This document shows positions 19,621 to 36,817 of a DNA stretch of 64,000 bases, piece after piece. Within the stretch, counting starts at the first letter, position 1; each line of letters opens with the position of its first letter. Under the pieces are notes generated by a model. The model had not been told where the DNA came from. It was given only the letters and a program-made list of their open reading frames with translations, and did not search any database. Origin of the DNA: Sinomonas sp. ASV486 (GTDB lineage: Bacteria; Actinomycetota; Actinomycetes; Actinomycetales; Micrococcaceae); assembly GCF_030908215.1 (NCBI RefSeq), contig NZ_JAVFJK010000007.1, positions 1 to 64,000 on the forward strand, written 5' to 3'. Both the position numbers and the translations under genes were made by a program.

Positions 19621-19853
19621 CAGCGCGGCACCTCCTAGCAGGGAGGTGCACGCGCGATCCCCGCAATCGAGGTCGGTGCGGTGGCGGGACCCGACATGCT
19701 CAGCTCATCTGGGCTGACCCTGGACGGCGCCCGGTGGACATGCGCAGGTGGCGGCCGAACGCCGGCACGTCCGGAATCCGAAGCGGCCACTCACGTCGGT
19801 GGACAGCAGCGACGGGGCCGGGAGGTGTCGGGCGTGCGCCGGGCGAACCCGGC

Positions 19854-20240
19854 AGGGAGATCGATCTCGAGTCCGCGGTCACCCACACCATGAGCGACCT
19901 CGAGGCCCTGCCCACCGAGGCGGAGCGGATGAAGGCCCGCGGCTTCGTCGAACGCTCCGGCATGGTCGTGGCCGGCGCCCTCCCCTTGGGGGAGATGGAG
20001 AAGCTGGGCCGGGCCGTCACCCTCTCCCGGGCCGAGCAGGCCCGCCTGACCTCCTGGGCCGACCCCGGATCCTGGACCGACGTCGGCGGGAACCGCCGAC
20101 GCGTCCGCCCCGGCCTGGGGAAGTTCCTCTTCAAGGTCGGCGGCCGCCCCGGCATCCCCGTCGCACTGAAGCTCACCAGCGTCGAAGAATCCCTGCACAA
20201 CACGAACAAGCGCTGGAACCTCGAAGGGGAGGGAACCTGA
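19854..20240 (+). pseudogene. C-terminal remnant of a conjugation ATPase
   Basis: About 128 residues in frame with no upstream ribosome site; an internal ATG at 19890 (MSDLEALPTEAE) is the only start with some sense. The sequence resembles, from memory, the C-terminus of ATP/GTP-binding proteins encoded just before coupling proteins in actinobacterial conjugative elements: FVERSGMVVAGALPLGEMEKLG, LSRAEQARLTSW, GKFLFKVGGRPGIPV, HNTNKRW. Those proteins carry Walker motifs in an N-terminal part that is absent here; upstream sequence in frame is not protein-like. It ends TGATG, overlapping the coupling protein start. Loss of this motor would block conjugation. Confidence 0.55.
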
Positions 20241-22009
20241 TGGGCGCACCGGGCAGGGGCCACCGTGCCGCCCAGCCGGCGCTGGAGACGACCCTCCTCT
20301 GGGCCGGCATCATCGCCGTGGTCCTCGTCGTCGGCGCCCTCACCCTCGCCGTCCACCTCGGCTCCCTCCTCTCCGGCGACGGGCAGAGGCTGCCGGCCAA
20401 CCCGTTCGAACTGGCCATCGGGCTCCTCACCCACAGGGTGACCTGGCCTCCGGCCGCGACCTGGATCCTGGCGGTCCTGGGTGCTGCCGTCCTCGCCTTG
20501 GCCGTCCTGGTGGCCCGTGCGGTGCTGCGGCACCGGGCCCGGGGTTCCCGGGTCGACGCCGCCGCCCAGTACATGGCCATGGGCCGGGACCTGCGCGCCC
20601 TGACCCTGGCCGGCGCGATCGCCACCGCCGAAAGGCTCGGGGTGGCCGGCGCCCCCGGCGTCCCGGTCGGGAAGACGGTCCTGGGCGGCCGGATGGTCTA
20701 CGGCTCCTGGGAGGACATGCACATCGACATCTGGGGCCCCCGCACCGGCAAGACCACCTCGAGGGCGATCCCGGCGATCCTCGCCGCCCCCGGCGCCGTC
20801 CTGGTTACCTCGAACAAGCGCGACATCGTCGACTGCACCCGGGACGTCCGCGCAGGGGAGGGGCCGGTGTGGGTGTTCGACCCCCAGTCGGTGGCGCTCG
20901 AGGAGCCCGCCTGGTGGTGGAACCCCCTCTCCTACGTCACCGACGAGGTCCGCGCCGCCCGCCTGGCCGACCACTTCGCCGCCGGCTCCCGCGGCCCCGA
21001 CGCCAAGACCGACGCCTACTTCGACCCCGCCGGCCAGGACCTCCTCGCCTGCCTCCTGCTCGCCGCCGCCCTCGACGGGCTGCCCATCACCCAGGTCCAC
21101 ACCTGGCTCACCCGCCCCGCCGAGGACACCCCGGTGGACATCCTCAAGGCCCACGGCTACACCCAGACCGCCGACGCCGTCGCCGGGGTCGTCAACGCCC
21201 CCGAGAAGCAGCGCGGCGGCGTCTACGGCACCGCCCTGCAGATGGCCTCCTGCCTGACCAACCGCCAGATCGCCCACTGGGTCACCCCCCAAGGAGAGAG
21301 TGACGGGCGGCCGATGTTCGACCCCGCCGGCTTCGTCCGCGGCAAGGGCACCCTGTACTCGCTCTCGAAGGAGGGCAAGGGCACCGCCGGGCCCCTCGTG
21401 ACCGCCCTGACCGTCGCCGTCGTCGAGGCCGCCGAGGAGCTCGCCGCCGCCTCGGCCGGCGGACGGCTCGCGGTGCCCATGGTGGGGGTGCTGGACGAGG
21501 CCGCGAACGTGTGCCGCTGGCGCGAGCTGCCGAATCTCTACTCGCACTACGGCTCCCGCGGCATCGTCCTGATGACCATCCTGCAGTCCTGGTCCCAGGG
21601 CGTCGAAGTCTGGGGCAGGGACGGTATGCGCAAGCTCTGGTCCGCGGCCAACATCAAGGTCTACGGCGGCGGCGTCGCCGAAGCCGAATTCCTGAACGAG
21701 CTCGCCCAGCTCATCGGCGACTACCGCTACACCAACACCACCCGCTCCCACTCCCGCCAGGGCACCACCACCAGCCGGGACGACGACCGCAGGGAACGCA
21801 CCCTCGACGTCTCGGATTTGGCCGCCCTCCCCAGGGGTCGGGCGGTCATGTTCGCCTCCGGCGCCCCCGCCGCCCTGCTCAGGACAGTCCCGTGGAAGGA
21901 CGGCCCCCACGCCGCCGCCGTCGCCGCATCGGCCGCCGCCCACGACCCCGCCAACCGGCCGGGTCCCGGCGAACGAAACCCACCGGTGCCTGCGGAGGTG
22001 TCCGAGTGA
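20240..22009 (+). CDS. TcpA/VirD4-type conjugative coupling protein
   Basis: 589 residues from ATG 20240 (GGAGGG upstream, overlapping the previous stop). Two membrane helices at about 15-42 and 71-98 anchor a cytoplasmic ATPase. Walker A is WGPRTGKTTSRA near residue 165; Walker B is VGVLDEAANVCRW near residue 416; RGIVLMTILQSWSQG follows as the Gln-containing motif. The family (TraG/VirD4, hexameric) brings the relaxase-DNA complex to the transfer channel. The gene is intact, unlike its upstream partner. Its stop overlaps the DUF4913 GTG in a GTGA junction. Confidence 0.88.
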   Translation: MGAPGRGHRAAQPALETTLLWAGIIAVVLVVGALTLAVHLGSLLSGDGQRLPANPFELAIGLLTHRVTWPPAATWILAVLGAAVLALAVLVARAVLRHRARGSRVDAAAQYMAMGRDLRALTLAGAIATAERLGVAGAPGVPVGKTVLGGRMVYGSWEDMHIDIWGPRTGKTTSRAIPAILAAPGAVLVTSNKRDIVDCTRDVRAGEGPVWVFDPQSVALEEPAWWWNPLSYVTDEVRAARLADHFAAGSRGPDAKTDAYFDPAGQDLLACLLLAAALDGLPITQVHTWLTRPAEDTPVDILKAHGYTQTADAVAGVVNAPEKQRGGVYGTALQMASCLTNRQIAHWVTPQGESDGRPMFDPAGFVRGKGTLYSLSKEGKGTAGPLVTALTVAVVEAAEELAAASAGGRLAVPMVGVLDEAANVCRWRELPNLYSHYGSRGIVLMTILQSWSQGVEVWGRDGMRKLWSAANIKVYGGGVAEAEFLNELAQLIGDYRYTNTTRSHSRQGTTTSRDDDRRERTLDVSDLAALPRGRAVMFASGAPAALLRTVPWKDGPHAAAVAASAAAHDPANRPGPGERNPPVPAEVSE

Positions 22010-22422
22010 GCGACGGCCTGCTGGGGGAGTGGGACGACGAGTTCACCGGCCCTGCCGAGGACGCCGGAGGGGCCGAGGGCGCGCCGCAGCTGTTCTACCC
22101 GGACGTCGCCCGCTTCGTCGGCGAGCATCTGGCGTTCGTGTACCGGAGGCACATCAACCCCGGCGGCGGGACCACCTGGTGCCCCCAGTGGTGGAAACAC
22201 GCCGAAGCCATCAGCCGCCTCGAAGCACTCTGGCGCGCCTGGGAACACCTCCGCCTCGACGGCACCACCGGCATGAGCACCTGGTACCGCGACCACGCAG
22301 ACCACCACATGGCAGTCCTCCTCAACACCGACGGCCCCTTCAAAGGCTGCACCCCCGAAGACGGCCACCGCACCAGACTCACACCACTGCCCTGCGAGGA
22401 ACCCCCGGCAGGGCTGTTCTGA
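22006..22422 (+). CDS. DUF4913 domain protein
   Basis: 138 residues, GTG start at 22006 with GGAGG 8 nt upstream, overlapping the coupling protein stop. DUF4913 pattern: LFYPDVARFVGEHLAFVYRR, then TWCPQWWKHAEAISRLEALWRAWEHLRLD, and STWYRDHADHHMAVL. The family is common on actinobacterial plasmids and integrative elements directly after coupling protein genes; its function is unknown. Together the two genes mark the conserved end of a transfer operon. Confidence 0.85.
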   Translation: MSDGLLGEWDDEFTGPAEDAGGAEGAPQLFYPDVARFVGEHLAFVYRRHINPGGGTTWCPQWWKHAEAISRLEALWRAWEHLRLDGTTGMSTWYRDHADHHMAVLLNTDGPFKGCTPEDGHRTRLTPLPCEEPPAGLF

Positions 22423-27990: not shown

Positions 27991-28735
27991 ATGGAGGCGA
28001 CTAGGGTGATTCCCATGGCACAGCTCGAGCCCAACCTGCCCGGCGGATACGCGGACGCTCTCGCCTCGCTCAAGTCCCAGGTCAGGGCGGCCCAGCACCA
28101 TGCCCAGCGCGTGGTGAACACCGCCATGATCGAGCTCTACTGGGGCATCGGCCGCACGATCCTCCAGAGGCAGGAGACCGCGCCCTGGGGGAGCAAGGTC
28201 CTGGACCGTCTCGCCTCTGACCTGCGGGCCGAGTTCCCCCACATGAAGGGGTTCAGCCGGCGCAACCTCTACTACATGCGCGCCTTCGCCGAGGCGTGGC
28301 CCGAGCAGATTGTGCAGACGCCGTCTGCACAGATCACCTGGAGCCACAACGTCGTCCTGCTCGACAAGGTCCCGGACCACCAGACCCGCCTCTGGTACGC
28401 AGCCAAAACGGTCCAGCACGGTTGGTCGGTGGCGGTGCTCGAGCACCACATCCTCACCCGGCTCCACACCCGTGCCGGGGCTGCGCCGAACAACCTCGAG
28501 GCGCGCCTGCCGGGGGAGGGGACGGACCTGGCACGGGAGGTCGCGAAGGACCCACTGGTGCTGGACTTCCTCGGCCTGACCGAGGAGGCCGACGAGCGCG
28601 CCATGGAGGAGGCCATGACCCTGCGCATGTCCCAGACCCTGGCCGAGTTCGGCCCCGGGTTCGCATTCGTCGGGCGCCAGTACCGGCTCTCGATCGAGGG
28701 CGACGAGGACTACTTCATCGACCTCCTCCTCTTCC
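27991..28735 (+). pseudogene. DUF1016 (YhcG-type) nuclease, 5' part, interrupted
   Basis: Residues 1-248 of a DUF1016 protein; ATG 27991 or 28015 are possible starts. The N-terminal DUF1016 domain is intact: AMIELYWGIGRTI, GFSRRNLYYMRAF, and SHNVVLLDKVPD. The PDDEXK nuclease half begins with FAFVGRQYRLSIEGDEDYFIDLLLF, which includes the metal-binding Asp, then coding is broken by a transposon at 28735. The rest of the gene is at 36483-36817. Joined through the shared TCTTCC hexamer, the halves give one frame of 358 codons (357 residues), the normal family length. As it stands the fragment reads into transposon DNA and stops at 28809, so the nuclease is inactive unless the element excises. Confidence 0.9.
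28730..28735. repeat. Hexamer TCTTCC at the left transposon junction
   Basis: Last bases of the 5' DUF1016 fragment. The same hexamer is at 36483-36488, the first bases of the 3' fragment. Tn554 also leaves a hexanucleotide core at its junctions. Confidence 0.75.
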
Positions 28736-28848
28736 TTATCTACAGCTACGCAATGGCGAGGTCCGTAGTTGTCCAGCGAGACCCAGCCTGTCGTCTGTCT
28801 GCCATGTAACTGACGTAGGGGCGAGAGCTTGTTGCGCGGGATGCCGTC

Positions 28849-28885
28849 TGCAGCGTTTGTATCGGTCAGTGATACAAACGCTGCA
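28849..28885. repeat. 15-bp perfect inverted repeat near the transposon left end
   Basis: Arms TGCAGCGTTTGTATC (28849-28863) and GATACAAACGCTGCA (28871-28885) with a 7-nt loop, 113 bases inside the left end and 169 bases before the KAP gene. There is no T-run after it. It could be a recombinase or regulator binding site, or an RNA hairpin in the KAP leader. Confidence 0.8.
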
Positions 28886-29053
28886 CTCCGTTGGCTCGTC
28901 CGAAGCCGCGAAACGCAAAGCGCCGGTGCGGCCTGATCGATGAGTCTCTGCGGTCCGGGGTCGTAGACTCGGGCAGGCGTGCGACAACAGCCCGAGGGAC
29001 TACCTCCCTTGGGCTGCAAGCGGCGGTGAACCAGACGTGGACTAGGGGGCGTT

Positions 29054-31123
29054 ATGGCAGAGGATCTCGACGAACTGCGACCGCCGGTCGACCACCCGAT
29101 CACCACGTCCAAAGAGGACTCACTCCAGCGCGCTCCGTTGGCGCATGATTTCGCCAAGAGCCTGCGATCACTCAGCACTGATCAGGGCGTCGTTGTCGGC
29201 GTCCTCGGTCCTTGGGGCGTCGGCAAGAGTTCCTTCATCAATCTGATGAGGGAAGAGTTTGCGGCGGATCCCGCCCTCACTGTCGTCGATTTCAACCCTT
29301 GGCTCTTTTCGGGAACACAACAGCTCACGGACTTCTTCTTCGCTGAGTTGTCGTCCCAGCTTCGACTCAAAGACGGCAGCCGTTTCGGCGCGATCGCAGA
29401 TCGCATCGACGAGTACAGCACGGTCCTGAGCCCGTTGGCCCTCATCCCGGGCTTCGGCTCCTGGTGGGATCGTTCGGTCAAGGCGCTTCAATCGGCCAAC
29501 AGCATCCGCAAGAAGCGCGCCAGCGCAACGTCCAAGCGGACCAAGGTGGCAGACGCACTCGAACAGGTTGACCAGCCAATCGTGGTCGTAGTCGATGACA
29601 TCGACCGACTTACAACTCCTGAGATCCGCGACATCTTCAAGCTCGTGCGCCTCACGGCCAGCTTTCCCAACCTGATCTATGTGCTCGCGTTCGATCGCCA
29701 TCGCGTCGAAGCAGCCCTCGACGAAGACGGTGTCCCTGGGCGGGCATATCTGGAGAAGATCATCCAACTGGCCTTCGATCTTCCTGCTGTCCCCGATACC
29801 CTGCTACGTTCGAAAGTCTTCGCGGAGCTCGACAGAATCCTCGAGGGCCTCGAAGACTCTCTCTTCGACTCCACGCGATGGGCCGACATCTACTTCGAGC
29901 TCGTGGAACCACTGATGTCCAACATGCGGGACGTGTCCAGGCTTGCCCTCTCTGCCAAGTCGACGATCAATGCGCTGCACCAGGACGTCGAGCTCGTTGA
30001 CGTCATCGCCCTGGAAGCCATACGAATCTTCCGGCCCGAGATCTTTGCAGACCTCCAGTCAGTACGAGCATTGCTCACCAACATTGGATCATTCACGGAC
30101 CTGCTGCTCAGGCAGCACAAGGCCAGGATGGAGGAGGTACTTGAAAAGTCCGGGAACGCTGATTTCGTCAAGAACGTCATCAGACGACTGTTCCCGGCCG
30201 CCCAGCGCCTCTTTGAGAACTACTCGTATGGCCCGGGTTCATTGAGCCAGTGGCGCCGCCAGCACAGGGTCGCACATGCCGACTTTTTCTCGCTCTACTT
30301 GGATCGGGTCGCTCCCGCAGAATTGGCCTCGTTCCGTTCGGCGGAGCACGCGTTCACTTTGATGACCGAGGCTTCGGAACTCGACGAATTCCTTGATTCA
30401 ATCCCCGATGAAAGTGTCGAGGATACGATTGGCGCGCTCGAGGCATACGAAGGGGAGTTCCCTCTGGAAGCCGTCGTGCCGTCCGCTGTCGTCCTCCTTA
30501 ATCGAATACCGAAGCTACCCCATCGGCCGAATCAAGGGGTCTTCGGGATCAGCCGGCCTGACCTGACCGTCGTGCGGGTCGTGGTGAGAATGCTGCGGCC
30601 CATTGAGGACGAGAGCGAACGCGAGACTATCGTGCGCCGAATTCTCGCCAATGTGCACAGCTATTCGTCTCGGTTTCTCCTCATCCGCTCAATCGGCCAC
30701 ATCGAAGGCAGCGGATCGCGGCTCATCAGTGAGCCCGTCGCGGCGGAGCTGGAGGGCCAACTTGTCGATGAAGCCCGATCAGTCCTGCCCACTGACTCCG
30801 GCCAAGAATGGGACCTGCTTCGCGTGTATCTTTTTGCCACGTCCAGGGACGGAGAAGCCAGTCCCGTCAACGTCTCAGGCAATCCAGAGTTCGTACGGGA
30901 TCTTCTGGCTTCAGCTAAGTCCTACCGTCGAACGCAGGCAATGGGTTCGCGGCATGTGGACATCGAGCCGGAACTTGCATGGGATGCGCTCGTGAAAGTA
31001 ATCGGGGAGGACCAACTTAGGGAAAGCGTCGCTTTGCTCCGCCAGACCGACGCCGAAACGGAGCTTGTCGGCCTTGCAGAGAAGTATCTGTCTGGATGGC
31101 GCCCGCCGGAGTGGCCGGAATAG
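29054..31123 (+). CDS. KAP-family P-loop NTPase
   Basis: 689 residues from ATG 29054 (GGGGG upstream). Walker A GPWGVGKSS is at 52-60, and Walker B VVVVDDIDRL at 177-186, with the DDIDR form typical of KAP NTPases. Between them a weakly hydrophobic segment (about 122-138) sits where KAP proteins often carry membrane helices. The remaining 500 residues are helical without a recognised domain. Characterised relatives include PifA of plasmid F, which blocks phage T7, and QatA of a defence system, so an anti-phage role is possible. GC content is lower than in the host genes. It is the main cargo of the Tn554-like element. Confidence 0.85.
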   Translation: MAEDLDELRPPVDHPITTSKEDSLQRAPLAHDFAKSLRSLSTDQGVVVGVLGPWGVGKSSFINLMREEFAADPALTVVDFNPWLFSGTQQLTDFFFAELSSQLRLKDGSRFGAIADRIDEYSTVLSPLALIPGFGSWWDRSVKALQSANSIRKKRASATSKRTKVADALEQVDQPIVVVVDDIDRLTTPEIRDIFKLVRLTASFPNLIYVLAFDRHRVEAALDEDGVPGRAYLEKIIQLAFDLPAVPDTLLRSKVFAELDRILEGLEDSLFDSTRWADIYFELVEPLMSNMRDVSRLALSAKSTINALHQDVELVDVIALEAIRIFRPEIFADLQSVRALLTNIGSFTDLLLRQHKARMEEVLEKSGNADFVKNVIRRLFPAAQRLFENYSYGPGSLSQWRRQHRVAHADFFSLYLDRVAPAELASFRSAEHAFTLMTEASELDEFLDSIPDESVEDTIGALEAYEGEFPLEAVVPSAVVLLNRIPKLPHRPNQGVFGISRPDLTVVRVVVRMLRPIEDESERETIVRRILANVHSYSSRFLLIRSIGHIEGSGSRLISEPVAAELEGQLVDEARSVLPTDSGQEWDLLRVYLFATSRDGEASPVNVSGNPEFVRDLLASAKSYRRTQAMGSRHVDIEPELAWDALVKVIGEDQLRESVALLRQTDAETELVGLAEKYLSGWRPPEWPE

Positions 31124-31201
31124 GCGCACGACGCGGAGAACCCTGTGCTCTCATGTGCCCGTCGGACCGACTCCGGCGGTCGAGCAGGCAAAGAGTTTGG
31201 G

Positions 31202-31849
31202 CTATTTCTCGAGGGCGGGCATTCCGAGCCGGGCGCAGATCTCCGGTTCTCCCGGGATGACGGCGACGGTGTTGTCAACGACGCATTCGGCCAGATGCGG
31301 GATGTAGTGACCGAAGCGGCCCAACAGGTCTGGGTCCGACGCGAGCGGGTGCCCGTTCTGGTCCTTGTAGTTATGGCCGGGGACGACGCTCCCGGGTACG
31401 GGGGACACGAAGCCCGTGGGGATGAGGTCGTCGGTGAACCCGGCGGGGTTCATTAGCCCCTGACTCCAGACACGGCTGCAGAGGTTCACGGGGTCGCTGA
31501 CTTGCCTCATACCCGCGTTCCTGTCGTCCGGGTTCGGTCCCTTCTGCGCGTCGAACCCCGTGTCGAAGATGCCAGCTGTGATGTACGGCGGCATGGTCGA
31601 CCCGGGGGGCCTAGTGGTGAGATCGGCGTGGAAGTAGCAGCGGATGTCCCGCTTGTCGTTCACCGGTGCGAGTGCCGTGTAGATGCCGGCCGCGGTGGTG
31701 CCGACCAGCGCTGTGCCAGCGACGGCGATGACCGCCGGGAAAGCAGGCCACCTGCGGACGGGCTTGGGTTTGCGGCGCGCTTCCTGGATGAGCAAGTTCC
31801 GGACGCGGTCCTTCGTGTCCTTCGGATAGGTCACTTCCGACAGGTTCAT
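31202..31849 (-). CDS. Membrane protein coupled to ECF sigma factor (anti-sigma candidate)
   Basis: 215 residues. A short cytoplasmic N-terminus (about 35 residues, with no zinc-binding HxxxCxxC) is followed by one membrane helix (AVIAVAGTALVGTTAAGIYTAL) and an extracytoplasmic domain of about 155 residues with three Cys. Its ATG overlaps the stop of the ECF sigma gene in an ATGA junction, the usual arrangement for a sigma/anti-sigma pair. It could equally be a sigma-dependent sensor without anti-sigma activity. It converges with the KAP gene, 78 bases apart. Confidence 0.6.
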   Translation of the reverse strand: MNLSEVTYPKDTKDRVRNLLIQEARRKPKPVRRWPAFPAVIAVAGTALVGTTAAGIYTALAPVNDKRDIRCYFHADLTTRPPGSTMPPYITAGIFDTGFDAQKGPNPDDRNAGMRQVSDPVNLCSRVWSQGLMNPAGFTDDLIPTGFVSPVPGSVVPGHNYKDQNGHPLASDPDLLGRFGHYIPHLAECVVDNTVAVIPGEPEICARLGMPALEK

Positions 31850-32454
31850 GACATCCTCGCTTCAACGATCTTGGCGTCGATTTGGTCGACGTGCTCGGCT
31901 CCGTTCAGTCTGGCCAGCTTGGCCCGTGCCCGGTGCAGCCGGGACTTGACCGTGCCGGGCCGCACGCCGAGGGCCTTGGCAGCCTCTTCCTGGGTAAATC
32001 CGCTCATCAGGCACAGAATCACGACGTCCCGTTCCCCGTCGTTCAGCCCCGCGGCGGTATCAAGCAGCTCTCGCACCACGCGTTCAGCGTCGAGCCTCGA
32101 CGCGACGGCCTCGGCGTGGTCGGCCTCAAGTTCGCCGTGGCGCGGGTCCGAGTACGGCAACCTTGCAAGGAAATCGGCATGCCTGCGGGAAGCCCTGGCA
32201 CGGTTGCGGTTCGCGTTCGTGGCGACCCCGAGAAGCCACGGCAGAACCGTGTCTCTCTCCGGCCTGAGCCTGTTCCGTTGTCGCCACGCCTCCAAGAACG
32301 TGACCGAGACGAGCTCTTCCGCGTCGTGCCAGGACCCACAGCGGGAAAGGCAATACCGGAAGACTGCGTTGGCGTGTCGGTCGAAAAGTACCCCGAAGGC
32401 CTCGGCGTCGCCGGCGATGCACTTGCGCCACAGATCTTCGTCGGGTTCCCCCAT
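31846..32454 (-). CDS. ECF RNA polymerase sigma factor
   Basis: 202 residues from ATG 32454 (AGG just upstream; the frame stays open to 32583 and the start could be up to 43 codons earlier). Region 2: FGVLFDRHANAVFRYCLSR and DAEELVSVTFLEAWR. Region 4: DGERDVVILCLMSGFTQEEA followed by ALGVRPGTVKSRLHRAR, a HTH. It would direct polymerase to promoters under control of the coupled membrane protein. It lies on transposon cargo and its targets are unknown; the KAP gene could be one, but no matching promoter motif could be defined by eye. Confidence 0.85.
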   Translation of the reverse strand: MGEPDEDLWRKCIAGDAEAFGVLFDRHANAVFRYCLSRCGSWHDAEELVSVTFLEAWRQRNRLRPERDTVLPWLLGVATNANRNRARASRRHADFLARLPYSDPRHGELEADHAEAVASRLDAERVVRELLDTAAGLNDGERDVVILCLMSGFTQEEAAKALGVRPGTVKSRLHRARAKLARLNGAEHVDQIDAKIVEARMS

Positions 32455-32551
32455 CAGCCTCATGCCTCGTAGTGTCCGCAGGACCCGAAAAGGTTCCCGG
32501 TTCGCAAAATGGTCTTCGAGACGGTCCATCAGTCCGTCGGGGCCACCCGTT

Positions 32552-32956
32552 TCATCCTGTTGTTCGATTTCGCGGGGCCCCACCAGCCAAGCGGAGCTCG
32601 CCGTAGGCGATTTCGAGTTGTTTGCGCAGTGCCTGGTTTTCCTCGCGCAACTGCTTGTTACGGGCTAAGAGGTTTTCGACCTTCGCCAGCAGGGAGGCGG
32701 GGGTCGTTCGCTGGTTTGTGGGGATCCCAGGCTTTCGGCCGCCATTCGCGTCGTTCAGTTCTCGGAGCGCTGCGATGACGTCCGCCTGGGCGTAGATGTA
32801 GGCGCGGGAAACACCTGCCCTGCGAGCCACCTCGGTGACGTTCGCGGTTTCCCCACTTGCGTGGAGGTCTCTCAGGACGGCGACGACGCGTTCTCGGGAG
32901 GCGGCCTTGCGCTCGGCGGCGGCCTTGGCCAGATGGCGGCTGTTGTCAGCTCGCAC
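32552..32956 (-). CDS. tnpC: Tn554-type transposition protein TnpC (DUF6262)
   Basis: 134 residues, GTG start at 32956, overlapping the tnpB stop by 11 bases. An N-terminal basic helix leads to a HTH (VTEVARRAGVSRAYIYAQADV, about 40-60) and then a coiled coil (LLAKVENLLARNKQLREENQ and onwards). Size and layout match TnpC/DUF6262 proteins found third in Tn554-like operons, where TnpC influences orientation and frequency of transposition but is not strictly essential. It is intact. Confidence 0.85.
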   Translation of the reverse strand: MRADNSRHLAKAAAERKAASRERVVAVLRDLHASGETANVTEVARRAGVSRAYIYAQADVIAALRELNDANGGRKPGIPTNQRTTPASLLAKVENLLARNKQLREENQALRKQLEIAYGELRLAGGAPRNRTTG

Positions 32957-35232
32957 GATTGGCCTCGCTGGCTCCCGTCATTTCGGCCCGGCCGCCCACG
33001 ACAACTTCGTTGGGCGAGCAGCCTCGGCATGCCCCGATGATGCGGGTGAGGTTCTCTAGGATCTCTTCGTTCTTCTCAACGATGCGACTGTGGCCCTTGG
33101 ACTTTGAGACGTCGATGAGCTCCAGCGTCGTCCGCAGTTGGGCCTCGTGCTGGGGGAGGAACTCGGGAGTGGTGATGAACAACGGGCAGGTTAGGCAGGG
33201 GTTGGCGTGCTCACAGGCGCTCTGGACGGGCATTCCGCAGAAGCCGTTCGGGAGGGTCTGCTTCGCCCTGTCCAACCCAGCTCGCGACCACTGTGCGTCC
33301 GCCAGAGGATGGTCCTCCGAAAGGGTGACCTCTTCTCCGCGAGCGTTGATCTTCCGCGCCCTCTCCCAGCTGGCGCGGACGGTCTTGTCATGCAGCCGGG
33401 CGTAGTGGTTGGTCATCTCGGCGGAGGTGTGATCCAGAAGCTGCTGCACGATGTGCTGCGGCACATCCCTATTTATAAGTCGCGTGCCGAACGTGTGCCG
33501 GAACTGGTGGGGCGTGATTTTGACCGGCCGTCCCAGCTCATCAGATACGGCTATGGCCGCGAGCCACCTCTTGAAGTGGTTGCGGAACCCCTCGGGTTGG
33601 AGTGCCTTGGTGCCGTCAGGGTTTGACTTGTATGCGGGGAATAGTACGGCAGCCGAGCCCGCCTCGTAGCGATTCCGGACTCGAAGCTGTTGCGCCTTGA
33701 TGCGCTGGGCGGTTCCCTCGTCCACCGGGGCGTAGGCATCGCGCTTCATCTTGTGGTTGTAGTAGGCCAGATATGGGTTGCCGTCGCCATCGACAACGAG
33801 GCAGTCCAGCTGCAGACCGATCGCGTCTGAGATCCGCAGCCCGCACCGGATCATCAGCTCGAGAACGAGACGGTAGTCGGGATTGGCCATCTTCGCGACG
33901 TTGGCCTCGTCCTCGATCTGGGACATGACGAACTCGCTGACCGCCCGTGCGGGCAGCCGCTCCGTCAGCCGCGGTATGTCCTGGGGATAGATCGTGCTCG
34001 AAGCGGGCAGCCCCGGCGCCCACTCGTACTGATGCACGTCGCGCAGGAATGCCCTCACCGCACACAGGTGCTTCGCCCCTCGACTCTGCCCTCTGAACAC
34101 GCATGCCGAGATCCGCTGCCCACCCTTCGATCAGGGACCTCGAGAGCTCCTCAGCTGAGTGCGGAATGGCGTCGCCCGCCTGGAGGTATTGGCCGAAGTC
34201 CGTGAGGGAGCCGAGGTCGAGCGTCACGGTGTTCACGACGAAGCCCCTGCTGAGCCTGTGGCGGGTCCAGCGCTTGACGAGATCCCGCAGCCAAGGGATG
34301 CGGAAAGGGACGAAGTCCAGTTTCCGCCTCGGGTATTCCGGATGGCCGAGGCGGGCGAGTCTCCACGAATCGCGTTCGTACTCGGTCCGCCACCCGGCCC
34401 CGTTCAGGAGAGTGTCCACCTGCTCATAGCCCCAAGCGAGGAAGGATACCGAGGGGCGGCCCCCCGGCCCGGGATTGATCAGCCTCTTCCACTCCTCAGG
34501 GGTGTGGTCGAGGAAGCTCTGCGCCCCCGTGGAGCGCAGCAAGCGCATCGCGCGATTCCACATGTACACATTGGCGCGGCGCCGCCCGTGGTCCGCCCAG
34601 CATTGGAAGGCGTACTGGATCTCCAACGCGAGCTGGTCCGGGAGGCCCCTGAGATCGAGTGCCGGGACGCCAGCCTCGTAGATCTTCACGACGAAATCCT
34701 CCAAGGTCATGCCCGGATTGTGCACACCGATTCTCTTCCACTGGGCGAAGTGGTTCCCACAGAAGACCTGCTTGCCATCCCTCCACAGCCCGCAGTCGGG
34801 GAACTGGCATTCGAGCTGGGGCCCGATCTCAGCGAGCGGGGACGCCCGGCTGGCCCACTGCGCGGGATCCTCAGCGGAGCCGTACAGCCTCCAGAGTCGC
34901 GCGTGGCGGCTGCACAGGCCGTGGCTCTTGCGGGCGAAGAGGCACCCACTGACGGTGCAGCCGGAATATGTGTGGATCGGGGTAACCGTTGACAGCCAGA
35001 CGTCCCAATCCGCGCCTCGGGCCCTTGCATGTTTCCACCTCTGCGAGTGCGCGTTGCAGAGGTCCTTCCGCGTGAAGGCCTCGTTGTCGCAGGATGCCAC
35101 CTTGCAAATGCCGTACGAGAACATGGGGTGCGCGGCCAAAGCGACCAGGATGTCCTTCCTGAACTCGGGCCGGACAGCCGCGGTCAGTATCCCCAGGGCG
35201 GAGTCGGCCGGTGCCAGAAGAGGGGAGGCCAT
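32946..35232 (-). pseudogene. tnpB: Tn554-type recombinase TnpB, frameshifted
   Basis: About 760 codons in two frames. The 5' part runs from ATG 35232 (overlapping the tnpA stop as TGATG) to about 34100, and carries three zinc-knuckle-like repeats C-x4-C-x(9-10)-C-x2-H at residues 43-62, 92-110 and 132-151. The 3' part (about 34100 to 32946) is one frame over: FRGQSRGAKHLC onward, with catalytic Arg in IRCGLRISDAIG, His-x-x-Arg in TPHQFRHTFGT, and DHTSAEMTNHYARL supplying the Tyr, then a Cys-rich tail. A single-base indel near 34100 explains the break; a sequencing error, programmed shift or true mutation cannot be told apart. If real, the recombinase core is not made in full length. Confidence 0.85.
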
Positions 35233-36371
35233 CACAGTCCTTCCTCGCCCGTCGGTGTTCCCGGCCAAGCTGATTCGAACCAGCCAGCATCCGTCAATGC
35301 CGCTCGCGCATCGGCCGCGGTCAAGTGGCCGTATATGCCAAGGGTCGTCTGGATACTTGCGTGTCCCATCAGCCGCTGGACGACCGCCCAGTCGGTGCCG
35401 CGCCGGATCAGCTCGGTGGCATAGGTGTGCCGCAGCTGGTGGGGGGTGAAGTTTTCGAGGCCTGTCAGCACCCTGAGGCGGAGCACGAGATCGCGCACCC
35501 CGGAATACGTCACCGGATGCCCGCGGCGGCCGCCCCAGAGATTCACGAACACGTAGTCCGAGTCGACGGAGCCGCACTCCTCGTCGATGTAATCGGCGTA
35601 GAGGGTGAACAGCTGGGCGTTGACCGGAACGCTGCGCGCCTTCTGCCCTTTGACCCGCGCGCCATTGCTGTTCTCGCGGGGAACAATGTCGACTTCCTGC
35701 CGCGAGATGCTCAGATCGCTGTGGCGAAGGCCGAGCACCTCGCCGACCCTCATCCCGGTCTCGAACAGCGTGCCAATCAGCAACCGGTCCCGATGCCGGC
35801 CGCACGCTGCCAGGACGCGCGCGATGTCCTCGCGCGCGATCACTTTGGGAGCGGGCCGAGTGACGCCTCGGAGCCGGATCTCACGCCGGACCGCTCCGCT
35901 CATCGCGTGGTCCAGGAACGGCTTGAACCGTCCCCGTCCCGCACCTGCCACCCAGCGGGACATCTGCAGATCCACCAGCGCATCGTGACGCCGCTGGAAG
36001 TCATAGAAGGCCGACACCGCCGCGAGCTTGCGCTCCAGCGATCGCTCCCGAAGCGAGGGGGCCGCCCTCGGCAGCACCGCGACACCCTTGCCCCGGTATT
36101 TAACCGGCGTCCTCAACCAACCAACCCACTCGCCGATGTCCTGCAAGCCCAGGGCGCGCCAATCCTTCTCGGTCTCATCCAGCCACCAGAAGAGGTCTTT
36201 GAGGTCGTGCGCGTAGCCCTTGACCGTGTTGGGAGAGTAGCTCGTCCGCTGGAGGTGGGCGAGAAAAGCCTCGACAGGCTTGACCGGCCTCATTCCCGCG
36301 TCCACAACCGTGTATGAACGCTCATCTGTGTTCGGCAACGCCATCGCCTGCACGCGCATGAATCCAGCCAT
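35232..36371 (-). CDS. tnpA: Tn554-type tyrosine recombinase TnpA
   Basis: 379 residues from ATG 36371 (GAAGG upstream). The N-terminal SAM-like domain (FLAHLQRTSYSPNTVKGYAHDL, about 34-55) is followed by the catalytic domain: Arg in ETGMRVGEVLGLR, His-x-x-Arg in TPHQLRHTYATE, LMGHASIQTT, and the Tyr nucleophile in LGIYGHL. All residues are in place. The gene starts 111 bases inside the right end of the element, as tnpA does in Tn554, and its stop overlaps the tnpB ATG. Confidence 0.92.
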   Translation of the reverse strand: MAGFMRVQAMALPNTDERSYTVVDAGMRPVKPVEAFLAHLQRTSYSPNTVKGYAHDLKDLFWWLDETEKDWRALGLQDIGEWVGWLRTPVKYRGKGVAVLPRAAPSLRERSLERKLAAVSAFYDFQRRHDALVDLQMSRWVAGAGRGRFKPFLDHAMSGAVRREIRLRGVTRPAPKVIAREDIARVLAACGRHRDRLLIGTLFETGMRVGEVLGLRHSDLSISRQEVDIVPRENSNGARVKGQKARSVPVNAQLFTLYADYIDEECGSVDSDYVFVNLWGGRRGHPVTYSGVRDLVLRLRVLTGLENFTPHQLRHTYATELIRRGTDWAVVQRLMGHASIQTTLGIYGHLTAADARAALTDAGWFESAWPGTPTGEEGL

Positions 36372-36381
36372 CCCGCCTTCT

Positions 36382-36416
36382 CGTCGTTGACACGATCAGG
36401 ATGATCGCCAACGACG
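36382..36416. repeat. Inverted repeat at the transposon right end
   Basis: CGTCGTTG (36382-36389) and CAACGACG (36409-36416), with an inner GATC/GATC pair, lie between the tnpA start and the right junction. Likely a recombinase binding site or the tnpA promoter operator; not proven. Confidence 0.5.
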
Positions 36417-36482
36417 CAGTTTTCGGGGTGCCACACCGTGCGTGAATTACATCACTGTCATCCCAGCGAAGGCTCCAGATAA

Positions 36483-36817
36483 TCTTCCACATACCTTCCA
36501 GCCGCTACGTTGTGGTCGAGTTGAAGTCCAAACGCTTCCGGCCCGAGCACCTCGGGCAGCTGAACTTCTACGTCGCCGCGGTCGACGGCATGCTCCGCCT
36601 GGGCCACCATGCCCCGACCGTGGGGATCCTGGTCTGCGGGTCCAAGAACGACCAGACCGTCCGGTACGCGCTCGACGCCTCAGCGACCCCGGTCGCCGTC
36701 GCCGCCTACACCTACGACACCCTCCCCGCCGAGGAGAAGGCATCCCTGCCCTCACCGGCGGCCATCACCGCCGCCCTCGAGCAGGGCACCGCTGCCGGAA
36801 AAGTGGAGCCCGAGTGA
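36483..36817 (+). pseudogene. DUF1016 nuclease, 3' part
   Basis: The last 111 or so codons of the DUF1016 gene cut at 28735. The frame reads HIPSSRYVVVELKSKRF, with the E-x-K of the PD-(D/E)XK nuclease motif, then EHLGQLNFYVAAVDG and the usual C-terminal segment to TGA 36815-36817. There is no start codon or ribosome site of its own. The first bases are the TCTTCC hexamer also found at 28730-28735. Together with the 5' fragment it forms a normal-length family member. Confidence 0.9.

Follow-up and report, generated by a model that had tools for sequence, protein, structure and literature searches.

A 64,000-nucleotide stretch of Sinomonas sp. ASV486 (contig NZ_JAVFJK010000007.1, positions 1 to 64,000; hereafter the window) carries a DUF1016 (YhcG) gene for a PD-(D/E)XK nuclease that is split by an element of 7,747 bp. 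The insert is very probably an actinobacterial Tn554-like transposon (TnpA, TnpB and a TnpC of the DUF6262 family), which is site-specific for the codons of a conserved D-L-L-L-F-H stretch in this nuclease gene and forms a stable, cargo-bearing knock-out rather than a switch. The features that carry this reading were observed directly: the borders, the flanking hexamers, the terminal repeats, the genes inside the element, homologues without any interruption, and a left end that recurs at this very base in another species.

The 5' piece of the nuclease frame starts at position 27991, reads to CTCCTCCTCTTCC and ends with base 28735, the last six bases (28730-28735) being TCTTCC. A second TCTTCC at 36483-36488 is followed by ACATACCT, and behind 36488 the gene continues as ACATACCTTCC. 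A first-pass annotation, made from the letters alone, had placed the borders and the TCTTCC copies in this way, and for the element at 28736-36482 it was correct to the base. It had also described a joined frame of 1074 bases without an internal stop. When the flanks are joined at one TCTTCC, the 1,074 bases comprise 357 sense codons and the terminal stop, a single frame of 357 residues in which the insertion point lies within the codon of H249. Both pieces match one Pfam model as its two parts (YhcG_C 2-67 on the left and 75-155 on the right, of 157 positions), and between them they hold the DUF1016_N and YhcG_C domains and the D...ExK residues of a DUF1016/YhcG PD-(D/E)XK nuclease; an intact protein is not encoded in this strain. 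The split gene also matches the PADLOC candidate defence family PDC-S02 (6e-95), a label which alone is no proof of activity. The terminal inverted repeats TTATCTACAGC and GCTCCAGATAA agree at 9 of 11 positions, which was equalled by 51 of 200,000 random 11-mer pairs from the element. TCTTCC by itself is common, with 31 copies on the plus strand of the window, and the two border copies count because they lie directly outside these repeats. The G+C content of the element is 63.1%, that of the window 67.1%.

A DUF1016 match at E ≤ 0.001 was obtained in 92 of 295 genomes of the family, and 29 loci besides the window's own were retrieved. A single alignment runs across the joint in 26 of the 29, in line with the expectation of the first-pass annotation that the halves align as N- and C-terminal parts of one protein. 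None of these 26 homologues has a gap between residues 244 and 261, and D244, H249, E259 and K261 are invariant in all of them. The two closest homologues read DLLLFHIPSSRYVVVELK, with 18 of 18 residues identical, and insertion-free copies occur within the genus in G037 and G175, the latter being one of the two closest and having a premature stop elsewhere. Asp244 together with Glu259-x-Lys261 is what we take to be the nuclease active site; since the DUF1016 N part matched no solved structure at E ≤ 1, this assignment is based on conservation and on the general features of the family. By separating Asp from Glu-x-Lys, the element should inactivate the nuclease.

The three other loci are broken in different ways. 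L020 departs from the gene at residue 211. L023 (G111) was ruled out as a carrier of this element; it has a frameshift of one base directly after the D244 codon (~2082-2091), a few bases from the insertion site, and no insert. In L031 (G105, another genus; 2213-2330) the gene diverges right after the D244 codon (GAT, then TGTTCC) into sequence of no assigned identity; as a carrier it was rejected, with neither TTATCT nor AGATAA in the 107 bp remaining before the contig end. A different DUF1016 gene (L061, G022 contig 14, 894-5447) is split about 20 residues further on by an insert of the RIT type (recombinase in trio), with three tyrosine recombinases in a row (434, 333 and 340 aa).

The pieces might have been domesticated, the truncated product of 272 aa (DUF1016 N domain plus 24 element-coded residues), or both pieces together, being functional. 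The 5' frame does stay open into the element to position 28809, and the ratio of nonsynonymous to synonymous substitution (dN/dS) of the N part is not raised, with 0.29 against each of two homologues (G037 and G175) and 0.37 between these homologues. The corresponding values of the C part were 0.12, 0.12 and 0.10. As neither half shows a raised ratio, the insertion looks recent relative to the divergence from the homologues, and a recent insertion would give the same N-part value. Since the nuclease residues Glu259 and Lys261 are cut off and a remnant of the gene in another species also lacks the gene start, domestication is highly improbable.

This remnant was found in G121, another species of the genus, where DUF1016 breaks at the same base and is followed by the same left end and the KAP NTPase gene. 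Between the window and G121 the host flank is 85.6% identical (48 differences in 333), whereas the element is 96.6% identical (93 differences in 2,716; Fisher p = 3.8e-14). The sharpest change in identity, the best single breakpoint, was located at 28738, 2-3 bp from the predicted border 28735/28736. The history of the element is therefore separate from that of the host gene, either by two insertions or by one insertion and flank recombination. The hexamer at the G121 border is TGTTCC, not TCTTCC. The G121 stretch read contains neither the gene start nor the 3' half of the gene, nor tnpA, tnpB or tnpC, and no TnpA was detected in the G121 genome at E ≤ 1e-60. Recurrence of this left end at one and the same base in a diverged allele suggests targeted insertion, which strengthens the first-pass view of a clean, site-specific insertion by a Tn554-like transposon. 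An assembly artefact was ruled out by the same left border in G121.

The left end of the element was present in two of the 295 family genomes, the window's own included, in both cases inside DUF1016. The own genome holds a single TnpA of this kind at E ≤ 1e-60, and a genome of the same species (G207) gave no match to the DUF1016 gene, TnpA or the left end. A TnpA search of genome contigs returned one distant locus (25% identity), and viral contigs gave no match. In a phylum sample TnpA was found in two of 396 (E ≤ 1e-90) and in an order sample the KAP NTPase likewise in two of 396 (E ≤ 1e-120; the other 43% identical), each count including the own genome.

From the right end inward the transposition genes are tnpA, tnpB and tnpC (Table 1), a short TnpA (35232-36371) being followed in the same direction by a long TnpB (32946-35232), with minus-strand orientation in both cases. 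tnpB, though present, carries a frameshift: compared with four relatives that have one continuous long TnpB, the window matches in two frames which switch near 34050-34110. Programmed frameshifting was ruled out, as the four relatives have one continuous frame. The third gene is TnpC-like through its DUF6262 domain, a family that PMC11947258, in its passage on the subject, labels TnpC and links to Tn6188 of Listeria. The imperfect terminal inverted repeats (9/11) and the 6-bp spacers at both borders complete the Tn554-like organization. No NCBIfam model scored above its cut-off for TnpA, the TnpB pieces or TnpC, and there is no DDE transposase among the annotated frames of the element. The rest of the element consists of 3.8 kb of cargo and non-coding sequence. 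The KAP NTPase is PifA-like and, by a model match over residues 12-444, a candidate for phage exclusion; the 215-aa cargo protein had no match in Pfam, NCBIfam or PADLOC.

Table 1. Positions in the window of the split nuclease gene, the inserted element and the features of the element.
Feature	Position	Strand	Evidence
5' piece, DUF1016/YhcG nuclease gene	27991..28735	+	ends inside codon after Asp244-Leu-Leu-Leu-Phe; Pfam DUF1016_N 1.6e-43, YhcG_C 2-67/157; PADLOC PDC-S02 6e-95
TCTTCC, tnpA-distal border	28730..28735	+	sequence; TGTTCC at same place in G121
Tn554-like element, 7,747 bp	28736..36482		terminal inverted repeats; homologue alignment across joint; identity step at 28738
tnpA-distal terminal repeat TTATCTACAGC	28736..28746	+	repeat comparison
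perfect 15-bp inverted repeat TGCAGCGTTTGTATC, 7-bp loop, near distal end	28849..28885		sequence; unchanged in G121
cargo: KAP-family P-loop NTPase, 689 aa, PifA-like	29054..31123	+	Pfam 2.4e-48; PADLOC PifA 1.4e-62 over residues 12-444; 97% identical in G121
cargo: 215-aa protein, overlaps sigma gene	31202..31849	-	frame only
cargo: ECF-type sigma factor, 245 aa	31846..32583	-	Pfam Sigma70_r2 4e-15, r4_2 1.5e-13; TIGR02937 above cut-off
tnpC-like gene (DUF6262)	32552..32956	-	Pfam 5.3e-10
downstream tnpB frame with tyrosine-recombinase domain	32946..34100	-	Pfam 1.1e-25; 46-51% identity to C part of four relatives
upstream tnpB frame	34101..35232	-	31-33% identical to relatives; reading frame differs from that of downstream part; frame border approximate
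tnpA, 379-aa tyrosine recombinase	35232..36371	-	Pfam 1.9e-35; 43-50% identity to relatives
tnpA-proximal terminal repeat GCTCCAGATAA	36472..36482	+	repeat comparison; AGATAA/AGATAT at same distance from tnpA in relatives
TCTTCC, tnpA-proximal border	36483..36488	+	sequence
3' piece, DUF1016/YhcG nuclease gene	36488..36817	+	His249 codon onward, with Glu259-x-Lys261; Pfam YhcG_C 75-155/157, 9.3e-20

Elsewhere in the window, a 753-aa frame at 19748-22009 resembles a conjugative coupling protein, as judged by eye, and ~19879-22420 is ~80% identical to genes for type IV secretion on plasmids of the Arthrobacter group, so this part of the window may represent a plasmid or a conjugative element.

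The first-pass annotation had further proposed that gene function is recoverable and that the element, if excised, would act as a genetic switch; neither proposal found support. In such a switch, precise excision would restore the nuclease in a fraction of the cells or in response to a signal, perhaps via the sigma factor of the element. In its favor, removal of the element restores the frame exactly and dN/dS of the two halves, measured against homologues, is not raised; the TnpA frame is open, and a Pfam recombinase domain remains in each of the two recombinases. Exact restoration is, however, expected of any such insertion at a coding site and was also read in relatives, and is thus no sign of use. 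The intact machinery for precise removal that phase variation would need is lacking because of the tnpB frameshift, unless this is a sequencing error. The G121 copy has lost the transposition genes and the 3' half of the gene, and strand-biased circularising integrative elements (SEs) leave no empty site according to the portions of PMC10214605 and PMC9345347 consulted. Because tnpB is frameshifted here and the recombinases and half of the gene are missing in the G121 copy, regulated restoration of the nuclease is unlikely, and we consider the reversible switch as a whole very hard to credit.

Relatives of TnpA at ~41-50% identity were found across Actinobacteria, many with the order tnpA-tnpB-DUF6262. 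In 24 relative elements examined, both ends were called in 14 (L045, L047 twice, L050, L051, L052, L054, L057, L060, L074, L075, L076, L078, L080), one end in three (L044, L055, L077) and none in seven (L046, L048, L049, L053, L056, L058, L059). L051, L057 and L060 offered several distal candidates, and the choice by end motif and host continuity could favor similar hexamers; the proximal end of L076, TTCTCT, was called by eye. L074 and L079 lie in one linear Streptomyces plasmid record (NZ_CP108868.1), in which a 10.5-kb stretch occurs twice with 100% identity, once at the end and once in the middle; L079 was left uncounted as a duplicate. A second TTATCT lies 79 bp inside the tnpA-proximal end in L044, L047, L051, L060, L075, L078 and L080, perhaps an internal recombinase site, of which the window has a weak counterpart only.

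Among the 17 relatives with a called end, 13 are inserted in the gene of a transposase, recombinase or transposition ATPase. These 13 are not independent, as the two L047 elements and L078 are one element type and L075 and L080 another. The targets are a tyrosine recombinase (L047 twice and L076 by Pfam above cut-off, L078 below cut-off), a TniB-type ATPase (L045), a Tn3 transposase (L074), a serine recombinase (L075, and L080 by a weak match and similarity to L075), an IstB-type ATPase (L051, E = 0.001, below cut-off), a transposase of IS1380 type (L052, likewise below cut-off) and an IS3-type element (L060, with HTH_21 in the frame downstream and an orfA motif read by eye). Two further elements, for which a single end was called, lie in an IS256/Mutator transposase (L044) and in an IS5-type transposase with DDE_Tnp_1 (L077). 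Beyond the Pfam matches, the names of the insertion sequence (IS) families follow general usage. L050 lies within a frame of no assigned family, and at L054, L055 and L057, judged without a Pfam scan, no gene was seen at the site. One Tn554-like element is present three times, at L047 4459-8448 (minus), L047 10887-14876 and L078 8887-12876, and every copy interrupts a gene for a tyrosine recombinase.

An ordinary insertion with a 6-bp target-site duplication, the transposase having chosen the site by chance, would account for the two identical hexamers of the window. This explanation meets with the missing DDE transposase, with the same base being struck in the diverged allele of another species and with the hexamers of the relatives. 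In 15 elements with both ends, the window included, 75 of 90 letters agree between proximal and distal hexamers; when distal hexamers were shuffled among elements the mean was 33.3 letters and 75 was never reached in 200,000 tries. The shuffle lends support without being a strict test, because one target type is common to four elements and some of the ends were picked manually. The hexamers are unequal in nine of the 15, window counted, by one to three letters (L057 agrees in only 3 of 6), so that a fresh target duplication does not explain them. Even the two L047 copies, 99.2% identical over 4,080 bp, have hexamers that differ at two of six positions within each copy. Insertion by chance can thus be given very little weight. 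Third codon positions hold seven of ten hexamer differences in identified genes (by eye, leaving out L050 and non-coding sites; binomial p = 0.02, the differences not being independent).

In SEs, according to PMC10214605 and PMC9345347, the 6 bp beside the intA-proximal end of the donor are placed at the new distal end. Three links among the relatives agree with this rule: the distal hexamer of L047 copy 1 equals the proximal one of copy 2 (TCCAGC), the distal one of copy 2 equals the proximal one of L078 (TGCAGA), giving a chain L078 -> L047 copy 2 -> L047 copy 1, and the distal one of L080 equals the proximal one of L075 (CGGCCA). Through TCCAGC there are also links from L047 copy 1 to L076 and from L076 to L047 copy 2; L076 is a different, longer element, and here a shared target sequence, not descent, is probably the cause. 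Such links can therefore arise without descent. In the window the rule is not readable, its two hexamers being equal. The hexamers that flank the relatives agree with the SE/Tn554 rule, by which 6 bp are brought along from the site occupied before.

For the DUF1016 element we infer that TnpA and TnpB would exchange strands at the 6-bp spacer as in Tn554 and SEs. The tnpA-proximal hexamer would be the host's own, and the distal one would come from the previous site, probably another DUF1016 gene. Movement would proceed via a circle, usually without loss of the donor copy, so that the host gene would stay off. With tnpB frameshifted this copy is probably stuck, and it would act as a stable knock-out which brings along a PifA-like KAP NTPase and an ECF sigma gene.

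Several points weigh against this reading. Transposition and recombination are deduced here from sequence, no event having been observed, and either a mutation or an error in sequencing could account for the tnpB frameshift. No TnpA relative above ~50% identity was found, the target rule for this lineage is drawn from two copies, and the 17 relative loci L044-L060 have no DUF1016 in their vicinity. Both insertions in DUF1016 could stem from one insertion and later flank recombination, the left border alone being comparable.

Taking the relatives together, we tentatively propose, at slightly less than even confidence, that actinobacterial Tn554-like lineages each home in the fashion of inteins to the least variable codons of one gene family. 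These would mainly be competing mobile-element genes, namely those for transposases, recombinases and transposition ATPases, and in the present case the gene of a nuclease that is a candidate for phage defence. The carried 6 bp would differ from those of the new victim mostly at third codon positions and form a pedigree of jumps, and the DUF1016 lineage would disable one candidate defence gene and bring another, a PifA-like NTPase. That conserved codons of mobile-element genes are chosen repeatedly was seen in a small sample. This wider homing pattern is the most interesting part of the finding: the relatives suggest a general rule for where such elements insert, and for a poorly studied transposon class the active-site codons of a nuclease family now offer a target that is precise and can be tested. 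Carried hexamers would let the ancestry of donor copies be read and would make the question of a Tn554-like empty site testable in actinobacteria. In addition, the element disrupts one defence-like gene while bearing a second one as cargo. DUF1016 as a target, or this target pattern, was not found in the open-licence literature, of which coverage was partial; the element belongs to the known actinobacterial Tn554-like class, with a target that appears unreported.

Tn554 of Staphylococcus has radC as its target, while the element described here sits in DUF1016 and differs in host phylum and cargo. Both have tnpA, tnpB and tnpC, terminal inverted repeats that are imperfect and a site-specific target; Tn554 carries along 6 bp from the left side of its donor site, as our element would by analogy (in part after PMC10214605). 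Actinobacterial Tn554-related transposons were already defined in PMC3414803 as having a long recombinase beside one of normal size, and TnpC as a partner. The section of that paper on these transposons agrees with our element in a recombinase of ~350-380 aa beside an abnormally long one, in the TnpC-like partner and in the occurrence in Actinobacteria. It names no target genes, whereas here the DUF1016 active site is hit, tnpB is frameshifted and 3.8 kb of cargo and non-coding sequence are present. It also gives the names TnpA and TnpB to the long and the short protein, the reverse of the Tn554 usage followed here. SEs are the best-studied mechanistic relatives and are reported to form circles without an empty site; PMC10214605 states that some GInts do leave one and lists Tn554 itself as not tested. 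According to the sections consulted in PMC10214605 and PMC9345347, SEs share two tyrosine recombinases, terminal repeats, a 6-bp fingerprint and few preferred targets with our element, and SE-6945 also enters insJ of IS3; unlike it, they have a fourth gene of their own (tfp) and srap and are reported in Gammaproteobacteria. RIT elements are tyrosine-recombinase transposons as well, and one lies inside another DUF1016 gene, but they have three recombinases, and that insert is a separate element at a site ~20 residues further on. Inteins and homing introns aim at the most conserved codons of a gene family, whereas here there is no splicing, the host gene is destroyed and entry would be by tyrosine recombination.

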